From Candidatus Wolframiiraptor gerlachensis (lineage in GTDB: Archaea > Thermoproteota > Nitrososphaeria_A > Caldarchaeales > Wolframiiraptoraceae), in the NCBI GenBank assembly GCA_021323375.2, contig JAJPCT020000016.1:1-64000 (forward strand): a stretch of 64,000 nucleotides of DNA, given 5' to 3'. The notes beneath the pieces were generated by a model. It was not told the origin of the DNA, searched no databases, and saw nothing but the letters and a program-made list of their open reading frames with translations. The translations under genes and the position numbers were made by a program. Positions 35,298 to 36,896 of the stretch are shown here, one piece after another (position 1 is the first letter of the stretch; each line of letters begins with the position of its first letter).

Positions 35298-35764
35298 GCC
35301 TTATATGATTCTATACTTCTCATCAAATACTTTAAGCCTTTCCTCTGACACGTCCCCCTCTTGTGATGCTTCTCTAGCCACCTCTCCCGTAGTGATCCCT
35401 GCGGCTATCGAAGAGTGTATCCCTTATGATATTTCCTTTTTTCTGTGATCCAGAAAATATGTCTTCTCATCACATATATCCTATCTCCCCGCTTATCAAG
35501 CCCATCCCCAGAACTGTTTTCTACACCCCTTGCATATCACTTGAACCATCCCCATTTTCGGGATGGTCCTTAATGAATAAGTGGGGACCCGTGTCGGGGA
35601 TATGTGGGGATGTTATTGCCCGGGGTTCTAGCCGGGATTTTTGTCCTCTAGAATCTTGGCGGGATTGAGGGTTTCGCCAGGGCTTATGCCCAGCATTTTA
35701 GGGGAATCCATGATGAGGGCGCTATGTGGCGAGCTCAGGAGCCTGCTTGAGGGAGGTGATATGG

Positions 35765-36635
35765 ATGGCTAGGATCTATTACGTTGATGTCACGATTCCC
35801 AGTGATAGGAAGAAGATACATGCGGGTCTTTGATGGTGGCAGGGTTTTCAGGGTTGGGAGGCTGAGCGAGCTGGAGGATGCCAGCGAGGTGTTCATTGAC
35901 GCGCTGTTTCCGGAGCCATATGAGGAGGTTCTTGAGCTGTTGAGGAGGGGTTAAGGCGTATCTGCTGAAAGATATTACCAAGTTGAGGAAGCTGAGGATG
36001 GAGAACAACTTGAAGAAGAGTGATGAGAATGATGCCATGCTACTTATACGAATTTCAAAAGAGAATTTTAGACCACTAGCGATTGAAGAACTGAGGCTCA
36101 GGATGCGAATGGAGCCGCTGATAAACAAATATGAGCGGATTATGCGATGGAAGAAGACCTTAAAGAGGCTGGTAAAGCGGGTCTTGATTGCAATTTCAGG
36201 GAGGTAGTAAGGCTTATGAACGCGGATAGACAGAAGATATCTGAGGAGGTTATTCGACAGGTGACCTCTCTTCCCATCCATGGTGAGGTTTATAGGAGGG
36301 CCTGCGAAATCCTCGGCGTTAAGAGGAGCGCCGAGCTAGCCATACTGGCGGTAAGGCTACCACTTCATCTACCGATGGTAAGATTGAAAGGACTATTGGG
36401 ATTGATTCCGGGCGGAAATGGAGGGCGATATAACCATGAACTGAGAGCACATATTGCAAGCTTTGCAGCAACTCTCTACATGAATGCTAAAAGACATGTG
36501 AATGCTTCGGATAAAGTTGCTGAGGTCGTTAATTGTCTACCAAAGAAGATGGCATTATGCAAGTTACAGCTAATGACTGTAAAGGCGTTACGGATAGCAT
36601 ATATTATGACTGTGAAGCCGCTGGTCGGCGAGTAG
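35765..36635 (+). pseudogene. Frameshifted IS110-like (DEDD/RuvC-fold) transposase
   Basis: Three plus frames in sequence: ARIYYVDVTIPSDRKK / MRVFDGGRVFRVGRLSELEDASEVFIDALFPEPYEEVLELLRRG / VKAYLLKDITKLRKLRMENNLKKSDENDAMLLI... / GLDCNFREVVRLMNADRQ...LGVKRSAELAILAVRLPLHLPMVRLKGLLGLIPGGNGGRYNHELRAHIASFAATLYMNAKR... Confidence 0.65.
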
Positions 36636-36758
36636 TAAAAGCCATAAAGACTGGTGAGGTTACACCCGGATTCCCACCATGGAGGATTTCATGAATCCAT
36701 GGATGATTTTATATGGTTCCCCTGCCGGTCTTTATGGCTACGAGGACTCGTCGGCCAG
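36621..36758 (+). other. Long structured inverted repeat overlapping the 3' end of the IS110-like gene (bridge-RNA-like candidate)
   Basis: 36621-36633 CTGGTCGGCGAGT pairs with 36746-36758 (two G-U wobbles); 6x6 internal loop (AGTAAA/ACGAGG); 36640-36651 AGCCATAAAGAC pairs perfectly with 36728-36739; apical region about 70 nt. Confidence 0.6.
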
Positions 36759-36896
36759 TCCCACCCCCTAATCCCCTTTTTTATTAATTAAGTCTAGACT
36801 GGGAAGGGGAATGAAAACGAACCTAGATCTTAGTCTACTACTGAATTTTTATCTGGAAGAATTACTCAAGTTTGTTACTCGTGGGGTGCTGGAATT

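Follow-up and report, generated by a model that had tools for sequence, protein, structure and literature searches.

A relic of a probable target-guide RNA in a divergent archaeal transposon of the IS110 superfamily

What is a structured inverted repeat doing at the end of a decayed transposase gene in an archaeon? The question arises in a stretch of 64,000 nucleotides (nt) of the Candidatus Wolframiiraptor gerlachensis genome (contig JAJPCT020000016.1; referred to here as the window), in which the arms of such a repeat lie at 36621-36654 and 36725-36758. An earlier note on this DNA had proposed an archaeal bridge RNA or its relic, and the position at the 3' end of the transposase gene, covariation among copies, and two-sided matches at three empty insertion sites all support that proposal. 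We conclude that the feature is very probably a decayed, self-encoded target-guide RNA, of the bridge RNA or seekRNA type, of a divergent archaeal transposon belonging to the IS110 superfamily. The evidence consists of structure, covariation, strand, association with a transposase, the predicted fold of that transposase, and the guide matches at the three empty sites.

The inverted repeat is real and is part of a structured RNA far beyond chance, with the same structure present in 26 copies on the expected strand of the genome. Folding of the + strand as RNA gave -65.1 kcal/mol compared to a mean of -39.0 for shuffled sequences (z = -7.2), with none of 200 shuffles equally good, and the - strand folded less stably (-53.7, z = -5.2). 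The TAG stop codon of the transposase gene (36633-36635) falls where the 5' arm of stem I ends, as had been noted from the letters alone, and a symmetric internal loop interrupting the arms, G-U wobbles on the + strand, and near-repeats in the apical region are likewise present. The near-repeats (CCATGGAGGATTTCAT / CCATGGATGATTTTAT), however, turn out to be mainly the two arms of an apical hairpin.

A DNA search with the region gave 18 matches in its own genome (1.28 Mb in 27 contigs). A covariance model built from 30 copies detected the 26 same-strand copies at E < 1e-10, and its scores were far higher for the + strand than for the - strand. Of 250 genomes sampled from the phylum, six contained the RNA family (its own, G001, G003, G014, G016, and G020). 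A search of genome contigs yielded one relative, in a record titled 'Nitrososphaerales archaeon'; no relative was found in IMG/VR, and an Rfam search of the region returned chance matches only. G000, G001, G016, and G020 hold copies whose transposase gene has the structure at its 3' end. Some copies of the RNA occur alone; the earlier note had named such transposase-free occurrence beforehand as a sign against its proposal, yet these copies keep the guide architecture.

The alignment indicates that the RNA would form one long hairpin: from its base, stem I (CTGGCCGGCGRGY / RCTCGYCGGCCAG) leads through an outer internal loop to stem II, and stem II through a hypervariable inner loop to an apical hairpin. 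In the window, the relic guide RNA delimited by the alignment, covariation, and the covariance model spans 36620-36759 on the + strand. Stem I has its 5' arm at 36620-36633, overlapping the end of the transposase gene, and its 3' arm at 36746-36759; the outer loop lies at 36634-36639 (AGTAAA) and 36740-36745, and stem II at 36640-36655 and 36724-36739. The apical hairpin occupies 36675-36705, and the segment between it and the 5' arm of stem II (36656-36674) was placed by its register with three copies, C1a, C4, and C10a. The 3' strand of the inner loop (36706-36723) would be the left-target guide, the strand identical to the left target. Across the aligned copies, GTAA in the outer loop is invariant and CTAC is nearly so. 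The target loop is the second, inner one; the symmetric outer loop that the earlier note had described hardly varies in sequence.

Covariation, one of the checks that the earlier note had asked for, was scored across the copies. Two-sided (compensatory) changes occur in 15 of the 23 consensus pairs, and the observed covariation score was reached by none of 500 shuffles. Pairing is present in 93.7% of alignment cells, compared to 16-48% when the register is shifted. Furthermore, 73 G-U pairs are seen across the copies versus 26 A-C mispairs, a difference that is supportive rather than a probability, since the sequences are related. An excess of G-U over A-C is what selection acting on RNA of the transposase strand would produce.

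To reconstruct empty sites, we looked in sister species for the sequences flanking several copies, and the sites of C1a, C4, and C10a (on contigs 1, 4, and 10) were recovered. In each of these copies, the left target recurs unchanged in one strand of the inner loop, and the opposite strand carries the complement of the right target; the two matches overlap at AG. The G005 empty site of C1a reads CTTAGCTGAGCTTCTTTCTAATTCG; the inner loop has CTTAGCCGAG as its 3' strand and GTTAGAAAGAAGC, with complement GCTTCTTTCTAAC, as its 5' strand. For C4, the loop is GGGAAATAGGTT plus the complement of GTTTAAGCCT, and the flanks in its own genome are GGGGAAATAGGTTT on the left and GTTTAAGCCT on the right. 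For C10a, the loop is TTTGAAAGTAG plus the complement of AGCCATAGTT, and the G001 empty site reads TTTGAAAGTAGCAATAGTT. The matches extend over ~10-12 nt per side.

When all 32 guide pairs were scored at each sister site of C1a, C4, and C10a, the copy's own guides ranked first of 32 at 8 of 8 sites, with one tie. C1a and C4 are the discovery cases, in which the matches first appeared; C10a is the cleanest confirmation because the flank test had pointed to it before its empty site was retrieved. In the test that does without empty sites, 7 of the 32 copies had a right-target score of at least 10, compared to 2.0% of mismatched guide-flank pairs. The comparison of loops with target flanks, which had also been proposed as a check, gave matches on both sides at three insertions, each with an RNA encoded at the element end and a target-matching internal loop of the IS110/IS1111 kind.

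By this reading, the 3' strand of the inner loop would pair with the bottom strand of the left target and the 5' strand with the top strand of the right target, both matches overlapping at the AG core, which reads CT on the opposite strand. Presumably, the transposase binds the guide RNA and inserts the element at the matched site. We infer that the RNA is transcribed and bound by the protein, that the protein catalyzes the reaction, and that a circular intermediate is formed; the invariant outer loop may act as a protein anchor or in donor recognition. Among the copies that lack a transposase, G000:C4:18794-18918 (L245) has a 12-nt match to its left guide 62 nt upstream, with no transposase between, and no right-target match was found for it; this arrangement suggests a minimal non-autonomous element.

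Guides evidently change faster than the rest of the element, judging from the sequences of related copies. Copies C5 and C52 of G016 are 94% identical over the 400 nt that precede the RNA and 91-97% identical over the scaffold, and their RNA centres are 61% identical, compared to 48% for shuffled sequence. Near-identity toward the transposase 3' end combined with almost wholly different guide regions (L103 and L105 of G016) suggests cassette exchange or very fast guide turnover. Such turnover also lends itself to a reverse order of events, in which insertion came first and the loop then acquired its sequence from the neighbouring host DNA, by copying or conversion, and so did not direct the insertion: guides that differ almost completely between copies 94% identical at the transposase 3' end must change quickly, and every copy in the genome carries a different one. 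However, the match covers both pre-insertion flanks, and its halves lie on two loop strands of opposite sense; target reading would give this pattern and no known copying process would, and natural reprogramming between related insertion sequences (IS) has already been reported by Siddiquee et al. (PMC11187229). We consider the reverse order improbable.

A transcription terminator or a DNA-level palindrome, such as a transposon end repeat, would need no guide role at all. The hairpin does stand at a gene end, and downstream of it come a C-rich tract and a T-run (36777-36782 on the + strand of the window) that is common to most copies and may mark the end of the transcript; a target match is, moreover, absent in many copies. 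This explanation nevertheless leaves unaccounted for the strand asymmetry of the wobbles, the invariant and hypervariable loops, and the two-sided matches at three empty sites, which are specific when set against the 31 other guides. It is largely refuted, and we think it very unlikely.

Several observations weigh against a target-guide RNA. For C5 and C22b, whose empty sites were also reconstructed, the copy's own guides fail the ranking test, and a clear target match is lacking in most of the 32 copies. At G001 and at G003 the window guides themselves rank second of 32, and at G005 they rank 19th. Unlike those of known IS110 elements, the element ends are not conserved between copies. Finally, a bridge RNA implies a donor-recognition loop and none could be demonstrated: comparison of the RNA with the element ends, known for three copies only, gave no consistent match. 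As candidate donor guide, the outer loop (AGTAAAA / CTACGA) predicted an end upstream in two copies only, with one mismatch each, and only C4 was plausible; matches to stem II were short and inconsistent. A target duplication of 6-9 bp, suspected at first, is now mostly attributed to the two guide matches overlapping, although 5-8 bp are common to both junctions and may be a real duplication. The left regions vary in length and hold fragments of host genes or of other mobile genes. The C5 guides resemble a tRNA in antisense that lies at their locus but away from the junction, and by eye several copies adjoin tRNA-like sequences (L092, L096, L091, L112, and L227).

The transposase is itself divergent. 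The genome contains 31 stretches that match it, of which 6 are near full length without stops, and relatives of the protein are spread more widely in the order than the RNA family. The ratio of nonsynonymous to synonymous substitution rates (dN/dS) between copies is 0.17-0.37, indicating that the protein was under selection in the past. An intact paralogue (L022:1606-2487) scores 12 bits against PF01548 (cut-off 29 bits) and 14.7 bits against the NCBIfam IS110 model, far under its cut-off. PF02371 (Transposase_20) had no match in the genome, while canonical IS110 members were detected in controls and in other genomes of the phylum. Sequence searches of the PDB with the protein and with its profile returned nothing, and a fold search alone succeeded. 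The AlphaFold model of the paralogue (predicted local distance difference test score 90.3) has a predicted RuvC-DEDD plus Nop-like fold, and all 12 Foldseek matches at E <= 1e-3 are TIGR-TasR, ISCro4, or IS621 (8wt6/8wt9 for IS621, 9t56 for ISCro4, and 9mty for TasR, at E values from 3e-7 to 1e-3). The DEDD residues are conserved (D8 in 14/14 sequences, E46 in 18/18, D92 in 18/20, and D95 in 20/20), and the K-S/T-D-x-x-D motif is of the IS110 type; together with the IS621 fold match, these give the protein the N-terminal RuvC-like DEDD domain of IS110/IS1111 transposases. Although the best single fold match, 9mty, is an RNA-guided nuclease with the same RuvC plus Nop-domain fold, a TIGR-Tas-like nuclease guide is most unlikely here, given that no TIGR array was seen, each gene has one RNA hairpin, the gene lies in a mobile element whose insertions correspond to clean empty sites in relatives, and the DEDD motif is that of IS110; RNA guidance of the archaeal protein, which the two systems would share, is our inference.

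Members of the IS110 family have a highly conserved serine in the C-terminal Transposase_20 domain (PMC11208160). The archaeal proteins lack this serine at the place where canonical members show xSG...ITKxG, in a comparison that depends on a weak profile alignment, and Tyr227 lies near the position of the serine motif in 18 of 19 sequences. IS1111-group elements with a seekRNA or bridge RNA (ISEc11, ISPa11, and ISKpn4) carry the RNA 3' of the transposase gene, with the top-strand complement 5' of the bottom-strand match and with overlapping target matches (PMC11187229). The archaeal family likewise has its RNA downstream of the gene, the same guide order, and overlapping matches, but its transposase falls under the Pfam/NCBIfam cut-offs and is without the serine motif, its RNA overlaps the coding end, its ends are unconserved, and its target matches run to ~10-12 nt on each side. 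Inspection by eye of the ends of C1a, C4, and C10a, for which no systematic search was made, did not show the sub-terminal inverted repeats (7-17 bp) of the IS1111 group. The IS621 bridge RNA has a target loop with two guide strands and a CT core overlap (PMC11208160). With IS621 and ISCro4, of the IS110 group, the archaeal system shares the predicted protein fold and a two-strand target loop overlapping at the CT/AG core; it differs in that the RNA is at the opposite end of the element, with the guide order reversed relative to the gene, and is one long hairpin with no demonstrated donor-binding loop. Because the conserved serine is missing, we place the family at a distance within the IS110 superfamily, as a variant that would work like a bridge RNA or seekRNA element, in neither named group. 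In the distant transposase relatives L114, L115, and L117, a different, conserved-looking structured region follows the gene, and in relatives from G038 and G005 the 3' hairpin differs and, by eye, looks conserved.

Our literature search found no description of the archaeal family; Vaysset et al. 2025, on IS110 origins, was outside its coverage. Bridge RNA surveys have been filtered by PF01548 and PF02371 (PMC11208160) and would miss this family, so that present catalogues probably understate the breadth of RNA-guided recombinases. Here a single genome supplies numerous natural copies whose guides differ, together with long target matches, and the question of the family's catalytic residue bears on the kinship of IS110, TIGR-Tas, and box C/D proteins. 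It is conceivable, though we hold the idea only tentatively, that these elements form a distinct Thermoproteota lineage of RNA-guided transposons, having a RuvC-Nop fold without the IS110 serine and possibly with a tyrosine nucleophile, no fixed donor ends, a single two-stranded target loop, and a guide cassette quickly exchanged between near-identical copies.

In G001, G003, and G005, the two genes that flank the window insertion are adjacent, 22-33 bp apart, and G001 homology resumes at window position 36885, which places the insertion at approximately 35309-36884 (+ strand; rounded to the break in homology with the sister loci). The transposase gene within it, as aligned by tblastn with an intact 294-aa paralogue, extends over 35765-36632 (+ strand). 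Its frame is broken by frameshifts and by five TGA, one TAG, and one TAA codons over the aligned stretch, and the window copy is thus a relic. A left-target match, TTATATGATTC, is present at the left insertion boundary (35300-35310, + strand), where the guide reads TTATATGGTTC, and a composite of both window guides (TTATATGGAATCCGGGTGT) agrees with the G003 site (TTATATTGAGTCCGGGCGG) at 15 of 19 bases in a hand alignment. Since TTATAT is native to the site in the sister species, the window copy by itself is no proof, and its target matches are suggestive only.

Other parts of the elements also recur. A conserved block of the left region, CATTTTCGGGATGGTCCTTAATGAATAAG, common to many copies, lies at 35552-35600 (+ strand) in the window; at L151 (G000:C6:21752) the block is followed by a different gene, starting MKKYRSLEERLRFYEQVMKLRGLGLSYKRIAKIIEERYG, which perhaps encodes another mobile-element protein. 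In many copies, a small accessory open reading frame ending ...IGESxMRxLCxELKxLLE overlaps or abuts the transposase start (e.g., L019:1715-2014). Inside the window insertion, a 112-bp fragment (35312-35423, - strand) is 69-82% identical to single places in relatives, is the sole occurrence in its own genome, and by eye reads as the C-terminal end of a geranylgeranyl-reductase-like protein. A short repeated gene (~95-108 aa, with two CxxC motifs) is found next to or within several copies, in the opposite orientation (L143-L149), and the window carries a 60-bp fragment of it at 35492-35553.
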